This document shows, in pieces, positions 15,401-37,225 of a stretch of 54,979 bases of DNA. Under the pieces are notes generated by a model. The model did no database searches and was not told the DNA's origin. It saw nothing but the letters and a program-made list of their open reading frames with translations. The translations under genes were made by a program, and so were the position numbers. Source of the DNA: Bacteroidia bacterium (GTDB taxonomy: Bacteria > Bacteroidota > Bacteroidia > Bacteroidales > VadinHA17). The stretch lies in assembly GCA_026391555.1 (NCBI GenBank), contig JAPLEB010000101.1, forward strand, positions 1 to 54,979, given 5' to 3'. How positions within the stretch are numbered: the stretch's first letter is position 1; every line of letters starts with the position of its first letter.

Positions 15401-16098
15401 TTTATCTTGCCGGCTTTGACGTTAAGGATGTTCATATGACTGATCTCATTGCCGGAAGAGAAACACTTGAAGAGATACGCATGATTGTTTTTGTCGGTGG
15501 ATTTTCAAATTCTGACGTTCTCGGTTCGGCCAAGGGCTGGGCGGGAGCATTCAGATACAATGAAAAAGCAAGAATTGCCCTGGAAAATTTTTACAAAAGA
15601 CCCGATACTCTTTCACTTGGCGTATGTAACGGATGTCAGCTGATGGTGGAGCTGGGTATGATATTTCCACAACATGAAGAGAAGCCCAAACTCCTTCTCA
15701 ATGAGTCACATAAATTTGAATCAGGCTTTATCGGGGTTAAGGTTTTAAAGAATAATTCAGTGATGCTTGGAAATATGTCGGGTATGGAACTGGGTATATG
15801 GGTAGCTCATGGAGAGGGTAAATTCAGTTTACCATATCATGAAAGCAAGTATCAGATTCCCTTAAAATTCAGCATGGATACCTATCCGGCTAATCCAAAC
15901 GGGTCAGATTATGATGTTGCAGGGTTATGTTCAGAAGACGGTCGTCACCTGGTGATGATGCCACATCTTGAACGTTCATATTTTCCCTGGCAGTGCGGTT
16001 ATTATCCTGCCGGCAGAAAAAATGATGACGTTACACCATGGATAAAAGCATTTATTAATGCAAGAGAATGGATTGGATCAGCGGGTAACCGGGGTTAA
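12403..16098 (+). CDS. purL: Phosphoribosylformylglycinamidine synthase, single-chain
   Basis: A 1231-residue large-type FGAM synthase (step four of purine synthesis), cytosolic. It carries the N-terminal linker, two AIR-synthase-like halves and a C-terminal class I glutaminase. Signatures seen are FSQVNSEHCRHKIF (about 160-173), ETHNFPTTVEPFNGAATGTGGEIRD, the VSIHDHGAGG and SGHDISAGGM repeats, and the glutaminase nucleophile in LGVCNGCQLM (Cys near 1075) with LERSYFPWQ near the end. No separate PurQ or PurS is needed. The start MILFFENSS matches other Bacteroidota PurL proteins. The last 21 bp overlap a convergent lipoprotein gene. Confidence 0.97.
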   Translation: MILFFENSSKNLIAVGTTEKLPEIDIEKLCWLFGSANLLSGDKMEGTFVGPRKEMITPWSTNAVEITQNMGIAGIKRIEEFHATTSKKPHFDPMLQSFYKGLDQSIFTIDKLPDPVFFLDDIKAYNLKEGLALNDDEIGYLDKLSKSIGRKLTDSEVFGFSQVNSEHCRHKIFNGTLILSGEEKKATLFQMIKETTKVNPNKVVSAYKDNCAFLQGPVVEQFAPATQDKPDFFNIKDYESVLSLKAETHNFPTTVEPFNGAATGTGGEIRDRIAGGKGAFPIAGTAVYMTSYPRPDGDRPWEKATKPRPWLYQTPEDILIKASNGASDFGNKFGQPLICGSVFTFEHFENLKKFGYDKVIMLAGGIGIGKKKDSEKDIPEKGDLIVLLGGDNYRIGMGGGAVSSVDTGKFDSSIELNAVQRANPEMQKRVYNAIRALSELDNNPVVSIHDHGAGGHLNCLSELVEATGGKIDISKLPIGDTTLSAREIIGNESQERMGLVMKKTDIDTLRKIAERERAPFYIIGEVTGDMQFTLENPLTGEKPIDIALASLFGDPPKTIMNDITVENGYRKLEYSIQNIHEYAEQVLQIEEVACKDWLTNKVDRSVTGRIAKQQCAGPLQLPLNNSGAIALDYRGKKGMATSIGHAPAAGLVDPAAGSLLSIAEALTNIIWAPLTNKLKSVSLSANWMWPCKNPGEDARLYSAVKAASDFAIALGINIPTGKDSLSMTQKYRDQVVFSPGTVIISASGEINDIRKIIEPVIVNNPYTSLLYIDMSRDAFKPGGSSLAQILNKLGEEVPTVKDPAYFKEVFDVIQNLILNNKILSGHDISAGGMLTTLLEMCFSNTSGGITVNLSALDERDIVKILFSQNPGIIIQVKDEGEIAEILLESGITYFAIGHPVEERTLFVTNDNNTITFDIDQLRDKWFRTSYLLDRRQCGPKLALERFENYKKHELNINIPDFSGTFKSLGITPERRKKTGIRAAIIREKGVNGDREMAYALYLAGFDVKDVHMTDLIAGRETLEEIRMIVFVGGFSNSDVLGSAKGWAGAFRYNEKARIALENFYKRPDTLSLGVCNGCQLMVELGMIFPQHEEKPKLLLNESHKFESGFIGVKVLKNNSVMLGNMSGMELGIWVAHGEGKFSLPYHESKYQIPLKFSMDTYPANPNGSDYDVAGLCSEDGRHLVMMPHLERSYFPWQCGYYPAGRKNDDVTPWIKAFINAREWIGSAGNRG

Positions 16099-16629
16099 AA
16101 AAATTGATAATAGTTTTGTATTTTCATCTATTGAATAATCATCATTCTTATAATCCTTTGGAACGATTTTCTCACTGATCACCTGGATATTGTAAAGGCC
16201 GGTGTCCTGAATAAAAAGGGAACCCATAAAAGAATCAGCCCTGAAATACGGGTAAATTACATCGCTTGAATTTTGAATTATTCTATCACATTCAGGGTTA
16301 GCCACAAGTCGGTTGTCATGAATATTTAGCCTCACCGAATTCTTATATTGAAGGTCAGTCGTGTCTGTAGTAGCACTAGACAACCATACATTAAAACGTC
16401 CTGATTTCGAAACCACAACATTCCATTCGGCGGTGTTGCTGGAGGGGTGTACCATGTCGCTGTAACATTCTGCTTTATCAACTTTTAATGAAATAGTTCC
16501 GTCTTTCTGCTGTAATATCTTATTTTGAACCCTATTGTTTTCCGTCTCTTTCTGTTCACCACTATTTTTACACGAATAAGATAAGTTGACCCCAATCACA
16601 ATCAACAACATAAATAATTTTCTGCTCAT
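16078..16629 (-). CDS. Hypothetical lipoprotein
   Basis: A 183-residue protein with a signal ending near VNLSYSC (Cys20) and a polar linker, so a likely lipoprotein. The rest (about 45-165) is a beta-rich sandwich-like domain (TISLKVDKAECYSDM, then EWNVVVSKSGRFNVWLSSATTDT, then GLYNIQVISEKI), similar in style to carbohydrate-binding or appendage domains of Bacteroidota envelope proteins. I do not recognise the family. Its 3' end lies inside the end of purL on the other strand (21 bp), and it has no obvious operon partner. Confidence 0.7.
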   Translation of the reverse strand: MSRKLFMLLIVIGVNLSYSCKNSGEQKETENNRVQNKILQQKDGTISLKVDKAECYSDMVHPSSNTAEWNVVVSKSGRFNVWLSSATTDTTDLQYKNSVRLNIHDNRLVANPECDRIIQNSSDVIYPYFRADSFMGSLFIQDTGLYNIQVISEKIVPKDYKNDDYSIDENTKLLSIFLTPVTR

Positions 16630-16795: not shown

Positions 16796-18697
16796 TTAGG
16801 AAATACCAGCTAACTCTTTTATTGAATTTACCTGCCTACAGGTATTTTTTTTTACTGTTTGATGCATCAGAGCCTCGGCGACAATCTCAGAAATATCTGC
16901 CACTCTTGTTTCTGTTGCTGAAGAAAACGTCTTCTTGCAAAGAGGACATGCTGTTGCAAGAATGTCGGGATTTCCTTTTGTGAGTTCTGCAGCAGCATCA
17001 CGTGCTATTTTGTTTTTTTTCTGATAGCTAATTTTCATATTACCAAGACTGCCCCCGCAACAGAGCGAATTTTCATCTTCAAATTTACTTTTCTCAAGTC
17101 GCGATACATGTTTAAGCACTTCTCTTGGTTCATTATAAACCCCGGAACCTCTTCCCAGATCGCATGGAGAATGGTAGACAACATTCTTACGTAAGAAATT
17201 CAACTTTACAGAACCTTCATCTATCAGGTTTTTAATGAATTGCGTGTGATGAAGCACTTCAATATCAAGATAATAGCTCTCCTTGAAAACCTTATAGCAT
17301 ATCGGACATGATGTTACCAGGGTATGTGCGCCTGATTTCCAGATCATCTGCGAATTGTAATTTACCAGCTCCCTTGCTTCCTTATCCTGTCCGGCAAGCA
17401 TAAGCGGGCGACCACAACAGACACCTCCCTGTTCATCGATAAAACTGTAATTTACACCGGAGGCATCAAGGATTTTTATCATGGAATTTTTAATGGTTGG
17501 GGAAAGGTGAGTCATACAACCAGCGAAGAATAAAACATCAGCTTTTTTTTGATTGGTTTCAGGAAGAAAGTTATACGCAGCAGAACCATTCGATTTCTCT
17601 ACAGTAACACTCTGTTGGCTACGGAAATAACCTTTGTAAATGTTCCTGAAATAATTTTCAGCTTCACCTCCCCTTATCTGGATCATCCTGATGGGCGAAA
17701 GTTCTATTCCCACCGGGCAATTCTGATCGCACCTGCCACACATCAGGCAGTTATGTGCAATATCTGATACATCATCATTATTACGAATAGCTTTCATCAG
17801 ATAAGCTGATTGAATATTGGTAATCCCGGCTGAAAAATTCAGCTGACATGCATTTATACATATTCCGCATGAAGAGCATGAGTAAGCCTGAACCTCTGAA
17901 TATGTACCTGCCTTATCGCCTGTTTTTATCCCTGAATTTCGCATAAAAATCAGGAATAATTCGGTCGGAATATGCATATACCTAGTAATGGGAAGGAGAA
18001 TGAAAAATGTACCCAACGAAAGGGAATAAAGCAACCAGAACGGGTAAGCCATCTGTTGGGCAGGAAGAAATGATGCAAGCCACGAGCCCAGCGATCCTGT
18101 CAGAAAACTGCCGGTGCCATAAGCGCCGCAGGTAAAACTTTCTGCAAGCAGGCGACTGGGAAAAATGAGCCATAATGAAGTCAGTGCAATTCTGTCAACA
18201 GCTTTAAGCCTGGTTGTTTTCTTCATCCCAACAACTCTTGAGAAAAACCTCTTGGAAACAGCCAGAAACAAACCTGAAAGGATAAATGCAAGGTTAAGAT
18301 CCATTAAAAACCCGTAGGCTGCTTCAATCCCCATCCGACCATGATCGGGATTGAAAAACCTGAAAAATATTGCTTTATATGGAGCATTAAGGTGCTTCGC
18401 TCCAAAGATATCAGCTTCAATAGTACCAAACAATATAAGTAAAAACCACCCAAAGGCAAGACTCATGTGCATATAGCCGAGCCTCAGGTTTGTTTTAAGA
18501 ATTTTCCTGTGTATCAGACTTTCAAGAAAAATCTCTTTCAGACTCTGTACGAAAGCATTCCCGAAGAAACCGCGCTGCAGTCTGAGCTTATCAGGACGCG
18601 ACAGATCACGGAACCAAATGACACTCCTTACTACAACATAAATTAGTATGAAGTACAAACCAATATTGAAAGGTATTACAAACGGATCAAATTGCAT
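16796..18697 (-). CDS. Membrane-bound HdrD-like iron-sulfur reductase (quinone-linked)
   Basis: A 633-residue protein from the ATG at 18697. Residues 1 to about 255 hold several TM helices of the HdrE/NarI-like type. Two ferredoxin motifs follow (CSSCGICINAC and CLMCGRCDQNC, about 272-345). Then come two CCG domains: AGCMTH...GGVCCGRP...SCPICY, and HSPCD...LCCGGS...ACPLC, which in HdrB/HdrD bind non-cubane 4Fe-4S clusters. The architecture resembles ETF:menaquinone oxidoreductase-type and HdrDE fusions, so electron exchange with the quinone pool is inferred. It is the last gene of the Hdr-like operon and overlaps the small ferredoxin gene by 11 bp, indicating coupling. A longer frame to 18772 is open but lies inside the previous gene. 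Confidence 0.85.
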   Translation of the reverse strand: MQFDPFVIPFNIGLYFILIYVVVRSVIWFRDLSRPDKLRLQRGFFGNAFVQSLKEIFLESLIHRKILKTNLRLGYMHMSLAFGWFLLILFGTIEADIFGAKHLNAPYKAIFFRFFNPDHGRMGIEAAYGFLMDLNLAFILSGLFLAVSKRFFSRVVGMKKTTRLKAVDRIALTSLWLIFPSRLLAESFTCGAYGTGSFLTGSLGSWLASFLPAQQMAYPFWLLYSLSLGTFFILLPITRYMHIPTELFLIFMRNSGIKTGDKAGTYSEVQAYSCSSCGICINACQLNFSAGITNIQSAYLMKAIRNNDDVSDIAHNCLMCGRCDQNCPVGIELSPIRMIQIRGGEAENYFRNIYKGYFRSQQSVTVEKSNGSAAYNFLPETNQKKADVLFFAGCMTHLSPTIKNSMIKILDASGVNYSFIDEQGGVCCGRPLMLAGQDKEARELVNYNSQMIWKSGAHTLVTSCPICYKVFKESYYLDIEVLHHTQFIKNLIDEGSVKLNFLRKNVVYHSPCDLGRGSGVYNEPREVLKHVSRLEKSKFEDENSLCCGGSLGNMKISYQKKNKIARDAAAELTKGNPDILATACPLCKKTFSSATETRVADISEIVAEALMHQTVKKNTCRQVNSIKELAGIS

Positions 18698-19046
18698 AAT
18701 CGTTTGATTTTTGGAATGCCTGTCTTGCCAGTACCACAATATTTCTTGTATTGACTCCCCGAGGACAAACAAGTGTACATTTTCCGCAGAGCATGCACTT
18801 TTTTAAATTCTGCCAAATCTGATCATTTTCACCGCGTTTAATGAGTACAAAAAGTTCTCTCAGACTGAATTTTGTTAAATTACCGGTAGTACATGTTGCA
18901 GAACAACCACCACATTCAATACATAATCTGAAACTGGGTTCATTTTCATAGATATATTCTGCTATCTTCCTGTCGTTGGCTTCATAGTTTATCTGTCGCC
19001 CTTTTGATATTGAATATCCGAATTTATCCATATTATTTCCTATCAT
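18687..19046 (-). CDS. HdrC-like dicluster ferredoxin subunit
   Basis: A 119-residue protein with two 4Fe-4S motifs: CIECGGCSATC (Cys42/45/48/52) and CMLCGKCTLVCPRG (Cys84/87/90/94), spaced as in HdrC. It should pass electrons between the flavin subunit (HdrA-like) and the membrane-bound CCG protein. Its 5' end overlaps the HdrA-like gene by 14 bp if the first ATG is used; the ATG at 19031 gives 114 residues and no overlap. Its 3' end overlaps the next gene by 11 bp. In HdrABC and in sHdr loci this component lies between A and B-type subunits, as here. Confidence 0.85.
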   Translation of the reverse strand: MIGNNMDKFGYSISKGRQINYEANDRKIAEYIYENEPSFRLCIECGGCSATCTTGNLTKFSLRELFVLIKRGENDQIWQNLKKCMLCGKCTLVCPRGVNTRNIVVLARQAFQKSNDYAI

Positions 19047-20061
19047 TTTTCAGATAATCCATTACTTCCAAGACGGCTGCACGGGCATGTGATATTGTTT
19101 CAGAAATATTCATTGGAGATGTACATGTACCTGCATAAAACACTCCATCAATATTACTCAGGTTACTCCCGTAATGGTTATCCCTGCTCTGAAAAAACCG
19201 ATTTTCCCCGGTTTTAAGGCCAAGGAGTTTTCCTGTTTTTTTGCTTCCTTCAGATATCTCCATACCAGCCATTAAAACGAGCAAGTCAATTTCCATTTTT
19301 AGTGGCCGACCGGCAAGCGTATCTTCCACCTTGACAATCAGTTTGTGGTTGAATGACTCCCCAACCTCTGACACCTTTCCCCTGATAAAATTTATTCCAT
19401 ATTTTTCCTGCGCTTCCATATAGAGTTCTTCATAAAGAGCGCCTCCCATCCTCATATCCATATAAAAACAAAACACTTTAGATTCAGGAATATTCTCCCT
19501 GATCTCAATAGCCTGTTTTACTGCTGTTACACAACACAATTTGGAGCAGTAAGGGTTACCAACCTTTTCATCGCGCGATCCAACACAATGTACCATTCCA
19601 ATGGTATTAGGAACATTCCCGTTAATTAAAGAAATATCTCCTTCACGGAACATTTTTTCAAGATCAACAGAGGTAATTACATTATCATAAATACCATAAC
19701 CATACTCTTCTTTTCTTTCACTTCTAAAAAGATCAAAACCCGTTGCAACAACTATTGCATCAGCGCATATCTCTTTTGCACGGTTGGTTTTTATTATGAA
19801 TTCCTTTTTGCTTTTTTCTAAATTGTCAATTCTGGTTCCATTCAGAAACGTGATATTATCATTATCAATCTGGTCCTTGAGGTATTTAATAACTTCATCA
19901 CCATTCCTCCGGTCGGGAAAAAGGTGATACCAATTGTTCAGATGCCCGCCAGCCTCTTCCTCCTTCTCGAGCAAGGTAACCAGATATCCTGCTTTGGCAA
20001 GTTGCCCTGCTGCTTCCATACCAGCTATGCCAGCACCAATAACAATAACGTTTCCGTTCAT
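19033..20061 (-). CDS. HdrA-like FAD/iron-sulfur subunit, short form
   Basis: A 342-residue flavoprotein with a dinucleotide fold (VIVIGAGIAGMEAAG, GAGIAG 9-14), VVATGFD (104-110) and the HdrA iron-sulfur segment HCVGSRDEKVGNPYCSKLCC (Cys159, 172, 176, 177). It lacks the extra N- and C-terminal ferredoxin and thioredoxin-reductase-like parts of methanogen HdrA. This short form of about 340 residues is the size known for sHdrA of sulfur oxidisers and for QmoA-type proteins. It should be the central flavin carrier of the complex. It sits 2 bp after the HdrB-like gene. Confidence 0.88.
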   Translation of the reverse strand: MNGNVIVIGAGIAGMEAAGQLAKAGYLVTLLEKEEEAGGHLNNWYHLFPDRRNGDEVIKYLKDQIDNDNITFLNGTRIDNLEKSKKEFIIKTNRAKEICADAIVVATGFDLFRSERKEEYGYGIYDNVITSVDLEKMFREGDISLINGNVPNTIGMVHCVGSRDEKVGNPYCSKLCCVTAVKQAIEIRENIPESKVFCFYMDMRMGGALYEELYMEAQEKYGINFIRGKVSEVGESFNHKLIVKVEDTLAGRPLKMEIDLLVLMAGMEISEGSKKTGKLLGLKTGENRFFQSRDNHYGSNLSNIDGVFYAGTCTSPMNISETISHARAAVLEVMDYLKNDRK

Positions 20062-20063
20062 TA

Positions 20064-21125
20064 TCAGGCATTTATAAGATTTTCAGGAATAGGCATTTGC
20101 CTTCCATCTTTGGTTTTATATTTATCGGCACTATCAAATTCAATTCCCATTTTTTTGAGCAGAGGTTCAGATTGAACCATGTGATATTGCAATCCAAGGT
20201 CCCATGGATTGTAACCAAGAACAAGTCCTGCCAGTTCTTCATAAGTCAGAACTGGAATGGATTCACCATTTTCACCGAAAGAAGTACCTTCCATCTCCTT
20301 TATTGTGAATTGCCATTTGTCCATAAACATTGTACATCCCGGGCAATTGGTCAGCACCATATCCGGCTTATAAGGCTTCATGGATGTAAATTTCTTTGCA
20401 GTATTGGAAACAGAGTAACCCCTGTTTGCCTGAACAAGGTATTGTCTGAAACCAAAACCACAGCAGTGTCTTCTCTCAGGGTAATCGATAACCTTCCCTC
20501 CCCAGGCCTGTACCATGCCACTAAGAACATTTGGAAATTCAGCTCCACCCACACCTGATTTAGGAAACATTTTTGCATAATGACAACCGATATGCTCTAC
20601 GATATTAAGTGGTTCTCCGGTTTTTTTATTTATTAGAAGATTTTTTGCTTTGAGAGCTATTTCGTTTCTGAATTTAAAAATGATGTCGCTTGAATGAGCC
20701 ACGTTTTCCGGAATATCAAATTCCCTGCCAGTTGCTTTGAAGAGATATTCACGTGTTTTTTCAAGTTCTTCCGGAAAATGTTTCCATGTTTCAAGTATCT
20801 CTGTGTAAAGTCCGAATGATGTTACGCATGATATAGCAATATTCTTATATCCCGACTCTTTCATCAGGGCAAAATGCCTCGCTATCACTGTCATTATTGT
20901 TGAGAGCGGAACGATATCGCTATGATAACCTATCCCCGTGCAGGTAGTGTGAGCAGGATTCTCATAAACATCTTTCCCGAGAATATTTCTCATCAGGTTA
21001 AGAAAAAACTGTTCTGAACCAGGGAAGAAGCTCTGACGGATACACGACCTTACATAAAAATAATGATCATTTGCTATCTCTTTCTGATATTCTGACCAGA
21101 TTCTTTTTTTCCCCTCAGCATTCAT
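20064..21125 (-). CDS. HdrB-like CCG-domain subunit (sHdrB1-like)
   Basis: A 353-residue cysteine-rich protein. The C-terminal CCG domain is complete: GCHYAKMF (Cys181), RHCCGFGF (Cys221/222) and NCPGC (Cys261/264). The N-terminal domain is altered: it has SCIRQSFFPGSEQFF (Cys28), HTTCTGIGYH (Cys62, where CCG would be) and ISCVTSFG (Cys100). This asymmetric pattern and length resemble my recollection of the B1 subunit of sulfur-oxidation Hdr complexes more than methanogen HdrB. It is the likely site of disulfide or bound-sulfur chemistry. It lies 16 bp after the HdrC-like gene and 2 bp before the HdrA-like gene. Confidence 0.85.
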   Translation of the reverse strand: MNAEGKKRIWSEYQKEIANDHYFYVRSCIRQSFFPGSEQFFLNLMRNILGKDVYENPAHTTCTGIGYHSDIVPLSTIMTVIARHFALMKESGYKNIAISCVTSFGLYTEILETWKHFPEELEKTREYLFKATGREFDIPENVAHSSDIIFKFRNEIALKAKNLLINKKTGEPLNIVEHIGCHYAKMFPKSGVGGAEFPNVLSGMVQAWGGKVIDYPERRHCCGFGFRQYLVQANRGYSVSNTAKKFTSMKPYKPDMVLTNCPGCTMFMDKWQFTIKEMEGTSFGENGESIPVLTYEELAGLVLGYNPWDLGLQYHMVQSEPLLKKMGIEFDSADKYKTKDGRQMPIPENLINA

Positions 21126-21141
21126 CTTTGTTTAAATAAAT

Positions 21142-21855
21142 TTAATGTGTATTATGGGTGCCATTATTTGCAGTGTACGCTTCTACAAAATAATCATTAT
21201 CAGTACCTTCACTACTGAACTGAAGACCCATTTCGGAGGCTTTTTTTCTGGAATATTTTTCAATTAAATCGAAAAACTCAGTTCCACCGGTCACATCAAA
21301 TATTTTCTTAAGCTCATCGAGGGCTTCCCGTGGAATCTTCCTTAAAGGTCCGGTTCCAATTCCGTTGATCTGACCTCCCAGCCGTTCAAATACATCATCT
21401 GCATTCTCAAGAATATATTCCCAGATTGGCCCCTGTTCAGGGTGCATTTGAGGATTAACTGCGTAAGTTGCAGCACAATAACCATACTTGAATATATTTT
21501 CGCCAACGGTTCGTTTTATAGCTAGCTGCTGACGTCCCTTTTCTGATTCAGTAAAATAGCCAAGTTTCTGGGAAAGAGTCCTGAGTGCCATTATAATAAA
21601 TCCCGGCGTATTGCCACGAGGACATCGTGTTTTGCACGACATACATTCTCCACAATACCAGATGGTTTCAGATTTCAGGAGCCCGATTATTTCATCCTCA
21701 TCTCTGGATTGAACAGCATCCGTGATTTTTCTGGGGTCATAATCATAAAATTCGGCAGCCGGACAAATAGCAGTACATACACCGCAGTTCATACAGGCTT
21801 TCAACCCCTCTTCAAACCGGATATCCGTCAATAATAAATCGTAAAGCTTTCCCAT
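21142..21855 (-). CDS. HdrC-like iron-sulfur protein (sHdrC1-like), first gene of the Hdr operon
   Basis: A 237-residue protein with two 4Fe-4S motifs, CMNCGVCTAICP (Cys21/24/27/31) and CGECMSCKTRCPRG (Cys68/71/74/78), followed by an unusual C-terminal domain of about 150 residues (KYGYCAATYAVNPQMHPEQGP and a helical region) that is absent from the 119-residue paralogue later in the operon. I start at 21855 (MGKLYDLLL), because the longer ATG at 21912 would translate through a palindromic operator and a promoter-like box. It opens the order C1-B1-A-C2-(membrane)B2. Confidence 0.82.
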   Translation of the reverse strand: MGKLYDLLLTDIRFEEGLKACMNCGVCTAICPAAEFYDYDPRKITDAVQSRDEDEIIGLLKSETIWYCGECMSCKTRCPRGNTPGFIIMALRTLSQKLGYFTESEKGRQQLAIKRTVGENIFKYGYCAATYAVNPQMHPEQGPIWEYILENADDVFERLGGQINGIGTGPLRKIPREALDELKKIFDVTGGTEFFDLIEKYSRKKASEMGLQFSSEGTDNDYFVEAYTANNGTHNTH

Positions 21856-21875
21856 CAACCTGTCAGTAGTGAGAT

Positions 21876-21900
21876 GTGTTAAAATATTAACACAAAAGTA
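21876..21900 (-). promoter_or_regulatory. Crp/Fnr-like palindrome and -7 box before the Hdr-like operon
   Basis: GTGTTAAAATATTAACAC (21876-21893) is a perfect palindrome with 7-bp arms and a 4-bp spacer. TACTTTTG (minus strand, 21900-21893) is an exact TAnnTTTG box that touches it. The palindrome would cover the transcription start, a position that suits repression. Its core TGTTAA-N4-TTAACA also occurs upstream of the molybdopterin reductase operon at 37330. Confidence 0.6.
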
Positions 21901-31121: not shown

Positions 31122-31526
31122 TTATTTTTTTCCTTCTTCCACTAAGGTCACATTTTTTGTAAGAGTAAGCGGAACTTCTCCCTCTGAATAGATAGCCTTA
31201 CCGGACATTTTGGTTCCTTCTTCCATATTTAAGTTTATCACAACATCCTGATCTTCAATATATACTGAAAAGTAAAGAGAGTCATTTTTAAATTTTACTT
31301 TTTCTCCTGCAATTTTATATTCACTTCCCGAAAACATCATTGAGGCCGAATATTTTTTTTCTGCAAAAACAACTTCAATAATCCCCGATGTATACCTTGC
31401 CGGAGCATACGGCGCTTCAAATTTCCAAGTACCAACCGGGTTATTTTTTTTAGCAGTATTTTGTCCATTTACGACGACAACTGAAAGGAATGAAATTACC
31501 AGCAGTGTTAAGATTTTGCTTTTCAT
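31122..31526 (-). CDS. Secreted beta-rich hypothetical protein
   Basis: A 134-residue protein with a signal peptide (MKSKILTLLVISFLSVVVVNGQ) and a small all-beta domain: GTWKFEAPYAPARYTSGIIEVVF, then YSASMMFSGSEYKIAGEKVKF, then LYFSVYIEDQDVVINLNME. The GTW opening recalls lipocalin-like domains common in Bacteroidota. I start at 31526 because the signal peptide begins there; an upstream ATG (31553) adds nine residues. No partner or function is evident. Confidence 0.7.
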   Translation of the reverse strand: MKSKILTLLVISFLSVVVVNGQNTAKKNNPVGTWKFEAPYAPARYTSGIIEVVFAEKKYSASMMFSGSEYKIAGEKVKFKNDSLYFSVYIEDQDVVINLNMEEGTKMSGKAIYSEGEVPLTLTKNVTLVEEGKK

Positions 31527-31626
31527 AGTTAATTTAGATTTGTTTGACATCAAATATAGAAATCAAAAATCAAATATTAATAAAAACATAAATTATTCTA
31601 AAAAGGTTGGTTGTTGCAATGAAAAT

Positions 31627-32250
31627 CTAGCATCCTCCGGCAGCTTTCTTTTTCTTTGCAGCAGGTTTAATGACGGGCTTTGACGAGGTAGCGCTCTGAT
31701 CCTGACTGGTCTGCATGGTTGCACCACCACCAAGTGCCAGTCCTGCGCTTTTGCGAAAGTCGTATTTTGCAAACTCCTCATCAGGGCTTGTTGAAGCCGG
31801 CTTCTGTGGGTTCAGAATTGCATCGAACCAATAGTTAAGTCCGCCTTCAAGCACATAATTGTTGTTAAAACCCAGTTGCCGGGTGATCATCCAGGCTTCA
31901 TTGGCAGTTAATGTTCCATTTGAATAGAAAATATTCATTTTAATATCCTGGTTAAGGATATCTGCATATTGGTCTGAAAGAAGGTCAGTTGCAGGAATAT
32001 TGATAGCGCCGGGAAGACTGAATTTCTCGAATTCATCCTGGCTTCTTACATCGATCAGGCGAAGGGATGGATCCTTCTTTATTATCATATCCGCCACAGC
32101 ATCAGGAGTTACATATTGAGTTCTTGTGTTTACTTCACCCAATAATTCCTCAGCAGTGAGTTTGTATGGTTTTGTCTTATTCTGCGGGACAGCAGCAATT
32201 ATTAGTCCCATTGGAATTATGAACAATGCTAATAATCTAAGTGGTTTCAT
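31627..32250 (-). CDS. Exported rhodanese-like protein without catalytic Cys, ending in Gly-Gly-Cys
   Basis: A 207-residue protein with an N-terminal signal or TM segment (about 5-20) and one rhodanese domain (about 45-145): RLIDVRSQDEFEKFSLPGAINIP and LGFNNNYVLEGGLNYW. The active-site loop reads FYSNGTLTANE, with Tyr109 where the persulfide cysteine belongs. The tail is Ser/Lys-rich (KPAAKKKKAAGGC) and its final residue, Cys207, is the only cysteine. It is the last clear member of the reductase-YeeE operon, so a role in periplasmic sulfane-sulfur handling is inferred. The terminal cysteine could act as a mobile sulfur acceptor. A longer start at 32271 is possible. Confidence 0.82.
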   Translation of the reverse strand: MKPLRLLALFIIPMGLIIAAVPQNKTKPYKLTAEELLGEVNTRTQYVTPDAVADMIIKKDPSLRLIDVRSQDEFEKFSLPGAINIPATDLLSDQYADILNQDIKMNIFYSNGTLTANEAWMITRQLGFNNNYVLEGGLNYWFDAILNPQKPASTSPDEEFAKYDFRKSAGLALGGGATMQTSQDQSATSSKPVIKPAAKKKKAAGGC

Positions 32251-32288
32251 AATAAATGTTTCAAGTTTCAAGTTTTTATAAATATAGA

Positions 32289-32879
32289 TTAATATTCTTC
32301 CCTCGGGAATTTTTTCTCAGCCCATTCTGCAACCCAGAACATTGCCAGGGCCATGATTATCAGTAAAAAGGCAAATACTCCATCGGTCAGTCCGAGTGTT
32401 TCACTAATTTTTGGCGAGCCAAGGAATTTTGCAAGATACATTCCGTCCCAGAGGTTATAACCGATACCGAAGATAAATACACCGATAAACAAACCTCCGA
32501 TAAAGACAAATGCATCAAGTTTACCGATTGATGCCCCACAGAAGCTTGTACCGGGGCAATAACCTCCCATAATAAAACCTGCTCCCATAATGATTCCCCC
32601 TACAATTGCAGAGGTCAAATAAGTAGGATTAATATAAACCAGTTTAAGGTCGATCCAGCCAAAAAGGCTGAAGAAGAGAAGTCCTAACATCGCGGTTATT
32701 GCTGCCGTGAAGAATACTTTTAGGACAACAGTATCGTAACCATAAAATACTCCCGCGAGTTTTCTACTTGATGAGAAACCGCTCTGTTCCAGAACAAAGC
32801 CGAATCCTATTCCTATGATAAAAGCCAGGAATAGATTCGTGTTTTCTGATATAATTTCATTGATTGCTAATGGTCCCAT
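32289..32879 (-). CDS. YeeE/YedE-family sulfur transport protein (half-size, first copy)
   Basis: A 196-residue membrane protein with about five TM helices. It contains GFGFVLEQSGF and the cysteine motif GGYCPGTSFCGASIGK (Cys108, Cys114), diagnostic of YeeE/YedE transporters that move thiosulfate or related sulfur species by cysteine relay. It is half the size of E. coli YeeE, and a second half-size gene lies next to it. Both are in the molybdopterin reductase operon, suggesting passage of reduced sulfur across the inner membrane. Confidence 0.88.
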   Translation of the reverse strand: MGPLAINEIISENTNLFLAFIIGIGFGFVLEQSGFSSSRKLAGVFYGYDTVVLKVFFTAAITAMLGLLFFSLFGWIDLKLVYINPTYLTSAIVGGIIMGAGFIMGGYCPGTSFCGASIGKLDAFVFIGGLFIGVFIFGIGYNLWDGMYLAKFLGSPKISETLGLTDGVFAFLLIIMALAMFWVAEWAEKKFPREEY

Positions 32880-32937
32880 GGTAAATATTATATTGTAAAG
32901 TTGTATTGCTGTTATGTCGTTATGTCGTTATGCCGAA

Positions 32938-33471
32938 TTATATCCAGTTCTTTCTGAAGAAATATGCAAGTACATAGGCGGTTCCGAATATTGCCATCAT
33001 CGTAATAAATCCACCTAGTGACAGTACGGCCATCCCGCTCAAAGCAGAACCGCTGGTGCAGCCCCTCCCAAGCTGTGATCCAAAGCCAAAAAGGACACCT
33101 CCTCCTAACGCGAGCAACAATCTCTTCCGTGATGTGATTTTAGGTGAGTGTTCAACTTTAAATTTCAGCCGGCCTGCAAAAGCGCCTGAAAGAAATCCCC
33201 CGACAATAACACCCAACATCTCAAAAACGAGCCATGTTTTCATCGGATTACCTGTGTGCGATTCCCTGAATTCTTTCACGAATCCTGACTTCTCAGCTGA
33301 CGATGGAGCAACTGTAGTCATAGCAGTAACAACTGTGCTTTTAATAGCACCGCTGGCACCAAGTCCACGTCCTGCAACAAAATTTGCTGCAAGAAGAACA
33401 ATACCCAGCAACACCCCACCCAGATACGGATTGAGGTATTTTGTCTTTTTTGTTTCCTTCGATTTAACCAT
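32938..33471 (-). CDS. YeeE/YedE-family sulfur transport protein (half-size, second copy)
   Basis: A 177-residue membrane protein complementary to the neighbouring copy: helices at about 15-35, 80-100 and 120-170 and the motif GFGSQLGRGCTSGSALSG (Cys138). The gap of 58 bp to the first copy contains an 8-bp GTTATGTC-type tandem repeat. I start at 33471 (MVKSKETKK), 22 bp after the NrfD-like gene; the frame is open to 33531 but that overlaps the previous gene and adds no TM helix. The two copies probably form one heteromeric transporter. Confidence 0.85.
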   Translation of the reverse strand: MVKSKETKKTKYLNPYLGGVLLGIVLLAANFVAGRGLGASGAIKSTVVTAMTTVAPSSAEKSGFVKEFRESHTGNPMKTWLVFEMLGVIVGGFLSGAFAGRLKFKVEHSPKITSRKRLLLALGGGVLFGFGSQLGRGCTSGSALSGMAVLSLGGFITMMAIFGTAYVLAYFFRKNWI

Positions 33472-33493
33472 ATTTTTAATTCTTTTCCAATTC

Positions 33494-34435
33494 CTAATAC
33501 AACCACCTGCTAACCTGCCCTGCATAAACAATTATAAACCTCAGCATAAGGCTGCCTAAAATTACCAGAGTGACAGGCACCAATACAGGGATATGAAATT
33601 TTCCCAGTTCCATTATCTCGAGCAGAGCTGGGATCAGCATCCCGAGGATCACAACAAATATCCAGAACGACATCGTATATGGCCCTCCAAGGAACATGTT
33701 TGCTGCTTCTATCTGCACCTGTGTACTGGCAAGAAACCCCATAAACAAATGAATGATCAGGAACAATTCGATTCCTATTAATACAAGATCAATGCGGGCA
33801 AACTGCTTACGCTCAGCCTTGTCCTTCGATAAAAGCAAAGTTACTGCCGCCCCCGCGGAAAGACCTGAGGCAAGGAAAAGAGGTCCGAGGATCGATGTAT
33901 TCCACAGAGGACGTGCATTAAAAGCTGACAGTAAAATACCGGTATAGATCCCAAGAATAATTGCATAGATGAGCATTACCCATGCCAGTGTCTTTTTGTA
34001 CTTATTGAAGAATGTGTCCAGGTTATATATCCATTTATATTTCCAATCCCAATCCGGAAAAATATCCTTAATATGAAGTGCGCACCAGATAAATGAAGCC
34101 GGTGTAATAACCATTAGTGTCCAGGCTCCCCACGACATAGGTGACTGCAATTTAATATTTGTATAAAGCTGCCAGAAAAAAAGTTTATGGCGCAGATCAA
34201 TAAACAATGCAATTAAACCGAGAACGAGAAGAACAGGTGCCAGAAAAGGGGTAATCCTGACAGCTGTCCTGTAATCTTTTTCCCTGCCTCTGATGAAATA
34301 GAGAGCAGCAATAGCAAGTATACCTGCTGCCATCCCGCCCAAAAAGAGATAAAGAGATATCTGCCAGTGCCAGATATGCAAGTGTGGATCAATGAGTTGA
34401 TTCATTCTTCCGCTGACAATAATTTCTTCTTTCAT
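33494..34435 (-). CDS. NrfD/PsrC-like quinone-binding membrane subunit
   Basis: A 313-residue integral membrane protein with eight or nine TM helices. The opening HLHIWHWQISLYLFLGGMAAG and MSWGAWTLM are typical of the PsrC/NrfD family, which exchanges electrons between the quinone pool and a periplasmic iron-sulfur subunit. Residues such as Asp and Arg in IALFIDLRHKLFFWQLY are the usual positions near the quinone site. It follows the PsrB-like gene by 22 bp (or 1 bp if the ATG at 34456 is used). Confidence 0.88.
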   Translation of the reverse strand: MKEEIIVSGRMNQLIDPHLHIWHWQISLYLFLGGMAAGILAIAALYFIRGREKDYRTAVRITPFLAPVLLVLGLIALFIDLRHKLFFWQLYTNIKLQSPMSWGAWTLMVITPASFIWCALHIKDIFPDWDWKYKWIYNLDTFFNKYKKTLAWVMLIYAIILGIYTGILLSAFNARPLWNTSILGPLFLASGLSAGAAVTLLLSKDKAERKQFARIDLVLIGIELFLIIHLFMGFLASTQVQIEAANMFLGGPYTMSFWIFVVILGMLIPALLEIMELGKFHIPVLVPVTLVILGSLMLRFIIVYAGQVSRWLY

Positions 34436-34457
34436 TTTTACTCTATGAATTAACATT

Positions 34458-34991
34458 CTATATTAGAAAGTATAATTGTGGATCGGTTCCAGCTTCGGGG
34501 ATAAGAGTTTTTGATTTTCTCTTTTTCAGTACAACTGACACATCACTGTTCATATCATCAAGGTCGCCAAAATACAGGCATTTGGTCGGACATACCTCCA
34601 CACAGGCTGGAGACATTCCGTTCTTAATCCTGTGAAAGCAGAACGTGCATTTATCAACATAGCCTGATGGATGCGGGTATCGCGCATCATAAGGGCATGA
34701 AGCCATGCATGCTCCACAGCCAATACATTCACCAGGTTCCACCAGCACAATTCCTCCATCAACAATATGACTTGCACCTGTAGGACAACATCTGACACAG
34801 GGAGCATTTACGCAATGATTGCACCTCTCCGATCTTATCTCAATCTCAAGCTGGGGATATGTTCCATCCATTACCTCGACAACCCAGTCGCGACAAAAAC
34901 CAATGGGTACATCATTTTCAGTCTGACAAGCCACAACACAATCGCTGCATCCCACGCATTTTCTGGTATCAACTGCCATTGCGTATCTCAT
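34458..34991 (-). CDS. PsrB-like four-cluster ferredoxin subunit
   Basis: A 177-residue electron-transfer subunit with four 4Fe-4S motifs: CVGCSDCVVAC, CNHCVNAPCVRCC, CIGCGACMASC and CTFC...CVEVCPTKC. This is the standard wiring between the molybdopterin subunit and the NrfD-type membrane subunit in polysulfide, thiosulfate and related reductases. It has no signal peptide and is probably exported with the Tat-signal-bearing partner. Its ATG overlaps the stop of the catalytic gene by 4 bp. Confidence 0.9.
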   Translation of the reverse strand: MRYAMAVDTRKCVGCSDCVVACQTENDVPIGFCRDWVVEVMDGTYPQLEIEIRSERCNHCVNAPCVRCCPTGASHIVDGGIVLVEPGECIGCGACMASCPYDARYPHPSGYVDKCTFCFHRIKNGMSPACVEVCPTKCLYFGDLDDMNSDVSVVLKKRKSKTLIPEAGTDPQLYFLI

Positions 34992-37225
34992 GATGCAACC
35001 TCCTCTCCCGTTTTTTCAATTACAAATGTCACAAAATTTGATCTCATACCTGTTCCTCCCATCAGAGGATCAACAAGTACATTTGTTATTAACTGTGTAT
35101 CGCTTACTCCCTTGCCAAAGCAACGTTTCATTTGTTTCTGTGCATGACCAAATCCATGTACTATATAAACCGAATCCCACCGGATTCGCTCCGTTACTCT
35201 GACTTTAACAGGAAAATCAGATATAACGTTATCCTGATTCCTTAGCCATATGTACTGATCAGATTTTATTCCCCACTCTTTTGCAACAACCGGATTTATC
35301 CACACAGTATTCTCATCCATCAGGTCAGTAAGATTGGGATTGTTAGATGTACGGCTGAAGGTATGCATTGGAGCGCGCCCATAAATAAGCCGGTAAAAAC
35401 CTTCTGCCGGTTCTTCATGAGCAACATATTTTGGAAGCGGGTCGTAACCGGCTCCTTCAAAATAAGAGGAATACAATTCAATTTTACCTGAATCAGTAGG
35501 AAATTCAACTTGCTCATTTTCTGAAAAATACAGATCATCCGCATCTCTCTCAAAGGTTTTAACACCAATTCTTTGCATCTCCTCAAGTGATGATCCGGCC
35601 TTTTTAAGTTGCCAATCAAGAAGCTCTTCCTGTTTTTCAAATGGGAAATAGTTCTCCAGAGCAAGCTTTTTTGAAAGTTCCCTGGCTATCCAGTAACCAG
35701 GTTTTGTATTATTAAGTGGTTCTGCCGCAGGCATCCGTAATGCTATTGCGGGTTTCCGGTGAGGACTGACTCTCAGACCATCATATCTTTCAAGATAGGT
35801 ACACTCAGGAAGGACAACATCCGCCCATCCGGTTATCTCCATTGGCATTGTATCAACAGCCACCAGCAGTTCAAGATTCTGTATCGCCTTAAGCGTATTG
35901 GCCTGATCCGGAATGGTCGTTATAAGATTAGTTCCGTTCACAATCCAGCCTCTGATCAGTAACCCGGGATTATTTTCCGGTATTGAAGCATCAATAAGAA
36001 CATTTGAAACAGGGGAACTGGCAATTGTATATTTCCCGGGAAAAGCATCTTCCCATGTTTTGGAAGGTGTTTTGAATGACGGCGAACCGTATGATGAAAG
36101 CTCAAATTTAGCCGGCCTGTAAAAACCACCTCGTCTGCCCCATGAACCCAGCAGAGCATTTAAAATAGCAACTGCTCTGATCCTTTGAGTATCATCACCA
36201 TACCAGGTTACATGACGCCCGGGATGGACTATAACAGCAGGTGATGCGTCAGCCATCTCTTTTGCTGTTTTCATGATAAGATCAGGCTTTATAGTCGTGA
36301 TCCCATAAGCCCATTCCGGCGTAAAATCTTTGACATGAGCTTTTAACTGCTCAAATCCGGAACAATATTTCTCAACATATTTTTTATCATAATAATCTTT
36401 GAATATTATCTCATGTATCCATGCCAGAAGCAGAGCCATATCAGTTGCAGGCTTAATCGGCAACCAGAATTTCGATTTTCCCGCAGCGGTTGAGAACCTC
36501 GGATCAACAGTAATAATTGTTGCACCCTTATCTATGGCATCAGACATCTCCTGAACCTGACCATTATGCATATTCTCTCCAATGTGTGATCCTATAAGAA
36601 CCAGGCACCTGGTATCACGAATATCAGTAATTTCAGGAGAATAAGCCTCTTCACCGAAAGTTGCCATGAATGCCTCATCCCTTGGTCCACGGCACTGGGC
36701 ATACGATGGTTCTGCGATATTAGCTGAACCGTATGACTTCATCAGAGTTGTAAAATATGATGAACCCGAGCCATGTGAAAACAGAGCCATACTCTCAGGT
36801 CCGGACTTTGAGGCAATGTTTTTCATTTTAACTGCAATAACCTCAAGAGCCTCGTCCCATGATGCTTCACGAAAAACCTGTTTCCCACGCTCTTCAACCC
36901 GTATCAGTGGAGTCTTGAGCCGGTCTTCATCATAATACATCCCAACGCCTCCTGTTCCCCTTGGACAAAAACGGCCATTACAGTGCTGATCATTTTCATT
37001 CCCTACAATCTTCCAGATTTTTCCTTCCGAGGTCTTATAGACCCAGCCGGCACACTTCCAGAAACAAACCTCACAATAAGTTGGTGTACGTTTGAGACCA
37101 ACAACCAGTTTTTTAACCTGTTCGGGCGATGAAAGAGCTTTAACAACTTTATATGCCCCTGTTCCGACTACCAGAACACCGGCTCCTATTGCCGAAATTT
37201 TAATAAAATCTCTCCTGCTGGTCAT
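34988..37225 (-). CDS. Molybdopterin oxidoreductase, polysulfide/thiosulfate reductase-like catalytic subunit
   Basis: A 745-residue DMSO-reductase-superfamily enzyme. The Tat signal is RRDFIK followed by a hydrophobic stretch, so it acts in the periplasm. The N-terminal 4Fe-4S cluster ligands are Cys51, 54, 58 and 87 (CEVCFWKC...FCPRG). The Mo ligand is most likely Cys178 in YAQCRGPRDE; it is Cys, not selenocysteine. Length, signal and the B and C subunits fit the PsrA/PhsA group. The neighbouring YeeE/YedE and rhodanese genes favour a sulfur substrate (polysulfide, thiosulfate or tetrathionate), but the direction and exact substrate cannot be read from sequence. Confidence 0.85.
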   Translation of the reverse strand: MTSRRDFIKISAIGAGVLVVGTGAYKVVKALSSPEQVKKLVVGLKRTPTYCEVCFWKCAGWVYKTSEGKIWKIVGNENDQHCNGRFCPRGTGGVGMYYDEDRLKTPLIRVEERGKQVFREASWDEALEVIAVKMKNIASKSGPESMALFSHGSGSSYFTTLMKSYGSANIAEPSYAQCRGPRDEAFMATFGEEAYSPEITDIRDTRCLVLIGSHIGENMHNGQVQEMSDAIDKGATIITVDPRFSTAAGKSKFWLPIKPATDMALLLAWIHEIIFKDYYDKKYVEKYCSGFEQLKAHVKDFTPEWAYGITTIKPDLIMKTAKEMADASPAVIVHPGRHVTWYGDDTQRIRAVAILNALLGSWGRRGGFYRPAKFELSSYGSPSFKTPSKTWEDAFPGKYTIASSPVSNVLIDASIPENNPGLLIRGWIVNGTNLITTIPDQANTLKAIQNLELLVAVDTMPMEITGWADVVLPECTYLERYDGLRVSPHRKPAIALRMPAAEPLNNTKPGYWIARELSKKLALENYFPFEKQEELLDWQLKKAGSSLEEMQRIGVKTFERDADDLYFSENEQVEFPTDSGKIELYSSYFEGAGYDPLPKYVAHEEPAEGFYRLIYGRAPMHTFSRTSNNPNLTDLMDENTVWINPVVAKEWGIKSDQYIWLRNQDNVISDFPVKVRVTERIRWDSVYIVHGFGHAQKQMKRCFGKGVSDTQLITNVLVDPLMGGTGMRSNFVTFVIEKTGEEVAS

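Follow-up and report, generated by a model that had tools for sequence, protein, structure and literature searches.

The closest described relatives of the system considered here are the sHdr complexes, in which heterodisulfide reductase (Hdr)-like proteins form sulfite in Hyphomicrobium (PMC12423496, PMC11582611). Type I sHdr is encoded by the syntenic genes shdrC1-B1-A-Hyp-C2-B2, and type II by shdrC1-B1-A-H-B3 with etfAB (PMC11582611). The route through the lipoate-binding protein LbpA is known from Hyphomicrobium (PMC11582611, PMC12423496). Here, we describe a related unit of five genes, C1-B1-A-C2-D, from a Bacteroidia bacterium of the order Bacteroidales. The unit lies at 16796-21855 on the minus strand of contig JAPLEB010000101.1, positions 1 to 54,979, and "the window" below means this whole stretch of 54,979 nucleotides. 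We give somewhat better than an even chance to the reading that the five genes encode a membrane-attached sHdr-like complex that does without a lipoate-binding protein, makes sulfite, and feeds it into sulfonolipids in a number of Bacteroidales. Energy-yielding sulfur oxidation, the frame in which an earlier note on this DNA had placed the genes from the sequence alone, is not suggested by the genomic context, in which sulfonolipid (cysteate) biosynthesis recurs. In that context, sulfite would serve as a building block. The caution in the same note that the substrate may differ from that of known sHdr was apt.

Gene organization and conservation of the unit

The five open reading frames (ORFs) are where the earlier note had placed them and follow one another closely, 16 bp apart for C1 and B1, 2 bp for B1 and A, and overlapping by 14 bp (A and C2) and 11 bp (C2 and D):

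21142-21855, minus strand: C1, HdrC1-like dicluster ferredoxin, 237 aa from ATG, first gene of the unit (ORF and profiles)
20064-21125, minus strand: B1, HdrB1-like, 353 aa, proposed catalytic subunit (ORF, profiles, motifs, and model)
19033-20061, minus strand: A, short HdrA of the FAD type, 342 aa (ORF, profiles, and alignment to 6tjr)
18687-19046, minus strand: C2, HdrC2-like small dicluster ferredoxin, 119 aa (ORF and profiles)
16796-18697, minus strand: D, membrane HdrD/EtfD-like protein, 633 aa (ORF, profiles, and model)
16078-16629, minus strand: lipoprotein-like small ORF just 3' of D (no Pfam family)

C1 also has a longer frame, started by TTG, from 21912. The lipoprotein-like ORF occupies the same place downstream of D in 35 loci and is treated as a putative member of the unit.

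All five genes are recognized in 106 of 163 Bacteroidales loci, a set that holds some genomes twice (for example, L049/L106 and L100/L145) and is not fully independent; the unit is therefore not a chance arrangement. C1 and B1 alone are recognized in 14. The locus set comprises 164 loci (L026-L189), 163 of them with recognizable core genes; because ORFs were selected by length, B1 or C1 was masked by antisense ORFs in some loci, and tblastn recovered some of these. B1 (E ≤ 1e-60) occurs in 77 of the 247 genomes of the window's order at 86 places, of which 84, all but the two of the window's own genome, were fetched. Of 296 genomes sampled from the phylum, 16, counting that of the window, have a B1 match at 1e-20, mostly through remote HdrBs. 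When the window's B1 was aligned with its paralogue from the same genome and the alignment used to scan genomes of named species, 132 relatives were found; the best 80 of these are 63-86% identical and carry Bacteroidota names except L091, which is labelled Clostridia.

Subunit families and motifs

Among NCBIfam profiles, HdrC is the best for C1 and C2, HdrB for B1, and HdrA for A, and the best profiles for D are TfrB, LdhH, GlpC, and DsrK. All NCBIfam matches shown for the five proteins fall under the curated cut-offs, and hence none of the five belongs outright to these equivalogs. By Pfam, C1 and C2 contain dicluster ferredoxin domains, B1 contains a single CCG domain, and D combines two CCG domains with Fer4_8. 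A aligns across residues 5-334 with the solved chain 6tjr, which we take to be the sHdrA of Hyphomicrobium, and has none of the additional domains found in the 667-aa HdrABC-type HdrA encoded in the same genome.

The two halves of B1 are asymmetric, as had been proposed from the sequence. The N-half is degenerate (C28, C62, and C100), and its motif, [TS]C[TSAG][GA] ... C[VIG]T[ST], is found in 158/158 B1 homologues, those of type II included, although these homologues are not all independent. The C-half is intact (C181, C221-C222-G, and C261-P-G-C264); CCG...CPGC is kept in 155/158 homologues, the exceptions being L102 and two type II sHdrB1.

D has hydrophobic helices, two 4Fe-4S motifs, and two intact CCG motifs. 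In an alignment of 132 sequences, the eight ferredoxin cysteines are kept, the cysteines of the two full CCG motifs are conserved at 99-100%, and His63, His77, and His242 in the membrane part are invariant. The best whole-chain match of the predicted structure (pLDDT 86.5) is EtfD of M. smegmatis (9ojn; E 8.6e-20, TM-score 0.64/0.56). D thus agrees with the architecture of an EtfD-type menaquinone reductase, that is, a membrane part, a dicluster ferredoxin, and two CCG domains, and by sequence and model it qualifies as a putative subunit of this type. D resembles 9ojn over the whole chain in fold; in contrast, the two are 17% identical, and D belongs to an Hdr operon with no etfAB recognized beside it.

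Relation to sHdr and other Hdr systems

In the HdrA and HdrB phylogenies proposed as a check, which have few references, short HdrA lies beside sHdr types I and II and B1 lies with type II sHdrB1. In the HdrA tree, built from every fifth A, one type I reference (6tjr), and two type II sHdrA references, short HdrA is split at 99/98 from the HdrABC-type HdrA of the window's own genome, one Qmo-like HdrA, and the HdrA of L178. Types I and II group together at 100/98, and the Bacteroidales and cyanobacterial HdrA form the other side at 94/98, sister to types I and II and not within them. A second Qmo-like HdrA, from L111, with a very long branch of 4.25, falls inside the Bacteroidales side. The HdrB tree contains every fourth B1 of full units, length-filtered B1 of the pair type, and references, with no type I B1; two of its rows, L008 and L010, are wrong-frame ORFs and are disregarded. 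It places B1 with type II sHdrB1 and the B1 of a cyanobacterial plasmid, against ordinary HdrB, with long branches that leave the deep order unsure. By these sequence comparisons, short HdrA groups with sHdrA and B1 has the asymmetry of HdrB1, both of which are marks of sHdr, and the unit appears sHdr-related, as the earlier note had it.

Gene order sets the unit apart from both sHdr types. With type I of Hyphomicrobium denitrificans it shares the order C1-B1-A, a short HdrA, a separate small HdrC2, and sulfite as the expected product; unlike type I, it has a membrane HdrD and is without Hyp, soluble HdrB2, and LbpA. Type I synteny is thus kept in C1-B1-A-C2, while within the window Hyp and soluble B2 are absent and D stands instead. 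Nor does the window's operon contain the H-B3-etfAB of type II, and by eye none of these recurs around the 163 loci. A type II locus from the same phylum, L024, likewise has C1-B1-A, a B1 with a degenerate N-half, and a transmembrane-ferredoxin-CCG-CCG protein, which is 22% identical to D. The locus begins with LbpA and thioredoxin, followed in order by C1, B1, A, a 251-aa ORF, and a soluble Fer-CCG-CCG protein; next come EtfB, EtfA, the membrane protein, a second LbpA, and a ligase (thioredoxin, Etf, and ligase assigned by eye). It differs in having LbpA, the 251-aa ORF at the Hyp position, the soluble Fer-CCG-CCG protein, and EtfB/EtfA, and its B1 is 29% identical to the window's and without CPGC.

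The earlier note had also supposed that a membrane-bound HdrD replaces soluble B2 and Hyp and gives quinone coupling. The EtfD-like nature of D fits this, and as a predicted membrane CCG-CCG protein D is compatible with quinone coupling. A transmembrane-Fer-CCG-CCG protein is, however, also present in the type II loci L024 and L025 (the latter known by BLAST labels alone), so the membrane protein by itself is not new. What is new is that it is coupled to a pared-down Hdr core that lacks Etf, Hyp, B2/B3, and LbpA.

The closest relative found outside Bacteroidota is a locus on a plasmid of Picosynechococcus PCC 7003 (L200 7242-12982). It has the same order C1-B1-A-C2 and a B1 40-42% identical to the window's; it differs in having a soluble B2 and a weakly SQR-like FAD protein (83 bits, cut-off 525) and no membrane D. 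The HdrB of an Acidithiobacillus plasmid is not in an sHdr locus.

Identity with methanogen-type HdrABC or Flx-Hdr is ruled out by architecture, motifs, and trees. The window's genome holds a distinct HdrABC set (L023 6266-9716) with HdrC, an HdrB having CCG/CxxC twice, and the 667-aa HdrA. On the same contig (C78), L023 6266-12833 continues after this set with genes that by eye are MvhD-like and Flx-like and lies beside complex I genes. QmoABC consists of two HdrA-like subunits and QmoC. The unit has one HdrA, D has no match to the qmoC profile, and C1 and C2 have weak ones; together with architecture, motifs, and trees, this rules out identity with QmoABC. In L111 (3-14318), a full unit has two HdrA-like ORFs and a QmoC-like gene upstream.

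Lipoate and sulfur-carrier partners

The earlier note had asked for a genome search for lbpA. PF01597 (GCV_H, the GcvH/LbpA family) was counted in 20 carriers of the unit, the window's genome among them: a single match is present in 19, and one carrier that is 99% complete (G313) has none. The type II sHdr genomes G005 and G087 have 3 and 2. The single copy is taken as GcvH from copy number and score. Among recurring locus neighbours, no LbpA, Etf, Dsr, or Sox was seen by eye, as opposed to by profile. Among the window proteins scanned there is likewise no dsr or lbpA product, with no profile search of the window aimed at them. Given the single GCV_H copy and the lack of LbpA neighbours, the unit seemingly does not use the Hyphomicrobium LbpA route, and LbpA-dependent sHdr was rejected on these counts. 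TusA was also rejected as a required partner, being present in 98/247 order genomes and missing from carriers such as G303, G313, and G406.

These counts bear on classical dissimilatory oxidation of sulfur for energy by an sHdr-type system, with sulfite excreted. The sHdr-like HdrA and B1 and the EtfD-like D would suit such a role, and so would a paralogue locus (L178) with TusA-, YedE/TsuA-like, and rhodanese-like genes. We nevertheless regard it as very unlikely, as the carriers have one GCV_H or none against the 3 and 2 of the type II genomes, the recurring neighbours include no recognizable LbpA, Etf, Sox, or Dsr, and the record titles of relatives include rumen, omasum, and reactor metagenome-assembled genomes.

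Sulfonolipid genes beside the unit

Evidence for a biosynthetic role comes from the neighbours of the unit. In at least 12 of the 163 loci, it adjoins sulfonolipid genes, namely cysteate synthase, SulA, and a short-chain dehydrogenase/reductase (SDR), in six arrangements. Cysteate synthase of family TIGR03844 (CS1) directly follows D in L083, L085, and L093 at 13, -10, and 26 bp, with scores of 445-476 bits against a cut-off of 324.9, and a protein of the same family has the same place in L150 and L155. In other loci, the synthase is CS2, a threonine-synthase-like family (e.g., L096 13657-14973). Here the arrangements are a contiguous Hdr-SulA-CS2-SDR (L096 and L097), SulA-CS2-Hdr (L169), and SulA-CS2-Hdr-SDR (L157, with CS2 placed by survey coordinates). 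In L177 and L179, the unit is rearranged to C1-C2-D-B1-A, and both CS2 and SDR are no more than about 3 kb from it. L182 has Hdr-SulA. The seven order-survey loci with sulfonolipid neighbours come from five families (f59, f78, f92, f131, and f158), and in 6 of these 7 genomes PF01507, the CysD/CysH family, is absent.

The SulA of L096 scores 624 bits with 7u7h, 570 with 28eh, and 250 with serine palmitoyltransferase. 28eh is named cysteate-C-fatty acyltransferase, and 7u7h, which is named a KAPA-synthetase-like enzyme in the structure table, is presumably the structure of A. finegoldii SulA. Lys281, described as a mark of SulA, the cysteate fatty acyltransferase (PMC9304779), is present in 11/11 SulA-type proteins checked. 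CS1 occurs in 66 and CS2 in 46 of the 247 order genomes, and no genome has both, where 12.3 would be expected (hypergeometric 1e-7). CS2 is probably a second cysteate synthase, judging from its place among these genes and its exclusion of CS1.

Cysteate synthase, as known from the methanogen enzyme, uses sulfite. Cys, CFAT, and KCR together convert phosphoserine to sulfobacin (PMC11211663), and capABC and capnine lipids are described for Labilibaculum euxinus (PMC12927429). Beside several cassettes there are interrelated ORFs of about 350-370 aa (L096 16126-17056, cut by the locus end; L177 14849-15919; L207 10207-11262; L210 6153-7268). They are VOC/HPPD-like by eye, those of L096 and L210 were tested and have no NCBIfam match, and a later step of the sulfonolipid pathway is a possible role for them.

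Possible exchange of the unit and CysH

In four genomes without B1 (L206-L209; G379, G439, G363, and G533), CysH is found in the sulfonolipid cassette beside SulA and next to CS2, from which it is two ORFs away in L206. In a fifth locus (L210), from a genome that carries the unit as well (G460), SulA and CS2 flank CysH and, by eye, CysD and CysN. These loci were chosen because their survey coordinates clustered and not at random; the CysH of all five scores above the NCBIfam cut-offs for phosphoadenylyl-sulfate reductase. CysH therefore has the same neighbourhood as the unit, between or beside SulA and cysteate synthase. Unlike the unit, it is an unrelated enzyme that obtains sulfite from activated sulfate. 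Sulfite is the one output that the two could share.

The distribution of PF01507, which occurs in 181 of the 247 order genomes, agrees with such an exchange. With B1 used as a proxy for the whole unit, B1 is found in 19/24 of the synthase-bearing (CS1 or CS2) genomes without PF01507 versus 21/88 of those with it (112 genomes; Fisher one-sided p=1.2e-6); this p-value and those that follow are exploratory and optimistic, because the PF01507 split was chosen after the neighbourhoods had been seen and the genomes are related. The contrast holds for each synthase, with 11/14 versus 16/52 for CS1 (p=0.0017) and 8/10 versus 5/36 for CS2 (p=0.00017). In the 135 genomes with neither synthase, the trend is reversed (5/42 without PF01507 versus 32/93 with it). 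When four carriers whose loci lack A or D (G535, G296, G414, and G511) are scored as negative, the counts are 15/24 versus 21/88 (p=0.0006), and with family-by-state units they are 12/16 versus 16/52 (p=0.002). Of the 19 carriers that have a synthase and no PF01507, 18 are 93-100% complete and one (G535) is 68%. Seven families contain both PF01507 states. Two agree with complementarity (f122 and f164), f69 agrees partly, f116 and f143 are neutral, and two, considered below, disagree; with such mixed outcomes, within-family contrasts do not decide the matter.

Also in favour of the link, a SulA-type gene is present in 71/77 carriers versus 103/170 non-carriers (p=7e-8), and the unit occurs in 3 of the 62 order genomes that have neither a synthase nor SulA. 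SulA alone was rejected as a discriminating marker, as it is present in 174/247 order genomes. Plain co-occurrence of the unit and TIGR03844 is weak (27/77 carriers, 39/170 non-carriers, p=0.034), and the pattern is clear only after splitting by PF01507 and adding CS2.

The same data bear on two other readings. The first is a redox unit unconnected with sulfur, for example an EtfD-like menaquinone reductase fed via HdrA, with closeness to sulfonolipid genes reflecting general lipid metabolism. EtfD-type proteins serve acyl-CoA oxidation, D is EtfD-like, and some loci adjoin a PstS-type ABC system or unrelated genes. By eye, however, no etfAB is among the recurring neighbours, and the dependence on PF01507 is seen solely in synthase-bearing genomes. 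Other neighbours are also sulfur-related, namely a SulP permease in L093 with a homologue in L155, and a CysP-like permease in L115/L139 (one family; L115 was tested and is below the cut-off). We therefore hold this reading to be improbable.

The second is that the unit works in the reducing direction, with menaquinol or another donor reducing sulfite, a disulfide, or a persulfide at B1 for detoxification or assimilation. Methanogen Hdr reduces a disulfide, and B1 folds like methanogen HdrB: its model (pLDDT 84) has the HdrB chain 5odc_B as best fold match, and the top matches are methanogen HdrB chains at a TM-score of 0.71. In addition, a PhsABC/PsrABC-like operon in the window suggests that other sulfur oxyanions may be handled. 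It is unfavourable to this reading that a consumer of sulfite would sit beside cysteate synthase, that the unit is most frequent in genomes with a synthase but no PF01507, and that CysH occupies the same cassette elsewhere. On balance, a reducing role appears unlikely, though it is the strongest of the rival readings.

Proposed mechanism

For a sulfite-making unit, the following steps can be envisaged. Reduced sulfur, either sulfane sulfur on a carrier or sulfide, would be oxidized to sulfite at the intact cluster site in the C-half of B1. Electrons would pass from C1 to the FAD of A, then via C2 to the ferredoxin and the two CCG sites of D, and D would hand them to menaquinone. With no LbpA, Hyp, soluble HdrB3, or EtfAB, D would take its electrons from the Hdr core. 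Cysteate synthase would join sulfite with phosphoserine to give cysteate, from which SulA and 3-ketocapnine reductase would lead to sulfonolipids in a number of Bacteroidales. The unit would stand in for CysH in species that do not assimilate sulfate.

Direct observations are the five-gene unit and its conservation, the repeated presence of sulfonolipid genes beside it, the complementary distribution of the unit and PF01507 among genomes with a synthase, and the lack of a second GCV_H protein. From this setting we infer the direction of the reaction, the sulfur donor, the quinone acceptor, and any heme in D; the cluster chemistry of B1 and D would follow that of Hdr by analogy. Formation of sulfite from sulfane sulfur has indirect support in the adjacency and the PF01507 pattern. 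A more specific version of the proposal is that anaerobic Bacteroidales possess a lipoate-independent, menaquinone-coupled sulfite synthase of Hdr/sHdr stock that needs neither O2 nor sulfate and is interchangeable with CysH, and that lineages having SulA and neither CS1 nor CS2 use a third cysteate synthase. To this version we assign slightly less than an even chance.

Several observations, besides the optimistic p-values, weigh against a sulfite-making role in sulfonolipid synthesis. Sulfonolipid genes are not next to the unit in most of the 163 loci. The case for CS2 consists of its context and its mutual exclusion with CS1. Families f54 and f109 contradict the PF01507 complementarity, the unit and PF01507 occur together in 21 synthase-bearing genomes, and 5 such genomes have neither. 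Both synthases are absent from 37 of the 77 carriers, and PF01507 is present in 32 of those 37. TusA-family proteins are missing from some carriers, G303 and G313 among them. Neither CS1 nor CS2 is found in the window's genome or in its genus mate G406; a strong synthase match is present in 6 of the 117 genomes of the window's family and in none of its genus.

The organism of the window

As neither synthase is found in its own genome, the claim is weaker for the window than for the group, and the role of the unit in this organism would be the one suggested by its relatives. The genome does contain SulA (contig C47, L193 1370-2614), which scores 618 bits to 7u7h, 611 to 28eh, and 236 to serine palmitoyltransferase and has Lys281, and no PF01507 protein was found in it; this combination fits the reading of the unit as a maker of sulfite. 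The window's genome is one of 73 of the 247 in the order that have SulA and neither CS1 nor CS2. Its organism may have a third cysteate synthase, import cysteate, have a gene that is missing from the 96%-complete assembly, or use sulfite in another way. In L111, a methionine gamma-lyase-family enzyme is encoded 12 bp after D, and a third cysteate synthase might be sought at this locus.

Significance

In the open-access literature searched, which is the scope of all statements in this paragraph, the proposed function, a sulfite maker for sulfonolipids, was not found in print. No treatment was found of the source of sulfite for sulfonolipids in anaerobes without sulfate assimilation, and no paper links sulfonolipid with heterodisulfide, or capnine, sulfite, and cysteate together. 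Sulfonolipid papers that name cysteate synthase do not mention sulfite. Papers with both cysteate synthase and heterodisulfide concern, by title, methanogens, methane-oxidizing archaea, or coenzyme M, and among those on HdrA/HdrB, Bacteroidales, and sulfite none bears by title on the proposal.

Should the unit prove to make sulfite, sulfur oxidation of the Hdr type would be a biosynthetic device as well as an energy pathway tied to LbpA. Release of sulfite by an Hdr core without a lipoate carrier would become testable in a five-gene system, and the 'heterodisulfide reductase' genes of many uncultured Bacteroidales would acquire a function. Sulfonolipids are of interest in the gut through their reported immune effects (PMC11211663).

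Other genes of the window and related loci

About 10 kb from the unit, at 31122-37225 on the minus strand, is the PhsABC/PsrABC-like operon, which includes a rhodanese-domain protein and NrfC- and NrfD-like subunits. Its PhsA/PsrA-like molybdoenzyme scores 469 bits to PhsA, below the cut-off of 694. The operon is a possible other source of sulfur species for the organism. The MacB-like ABC, PurL, and lipoprotein neighbours of the window's unit recur merely as short-range synteny.

The C1-B1-only type forms one clade in the HdrB tree (12 rows, support 88). A second C1-B1 copy in the window's genome (contig C108, L022 10378-12168), 64% identical, falls within it. C1-B1 pairs without a full unit are found in L022, L099, L101, L146, L170-L172, L174, L175, L178, L181, and L185, and several of them adjoin Mrp/MinD-type ATPases, DIMC/NifX-like proteins, a 4HBT thioesterase, or a methionine gamma-lyase-like enzyme. 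In L178 (G321, contig C67), pair-type C1 and B1 occur with TusA, a YedE/TsuA-like transporter, rhodanese-like ORFs, and HdrA-like genes. Finally, three loci of family f52 (L164, L166, and L168) have B1-A alone, with no C1, C2, or D nearby and with CS2 and SulA elsewhere in the genome.

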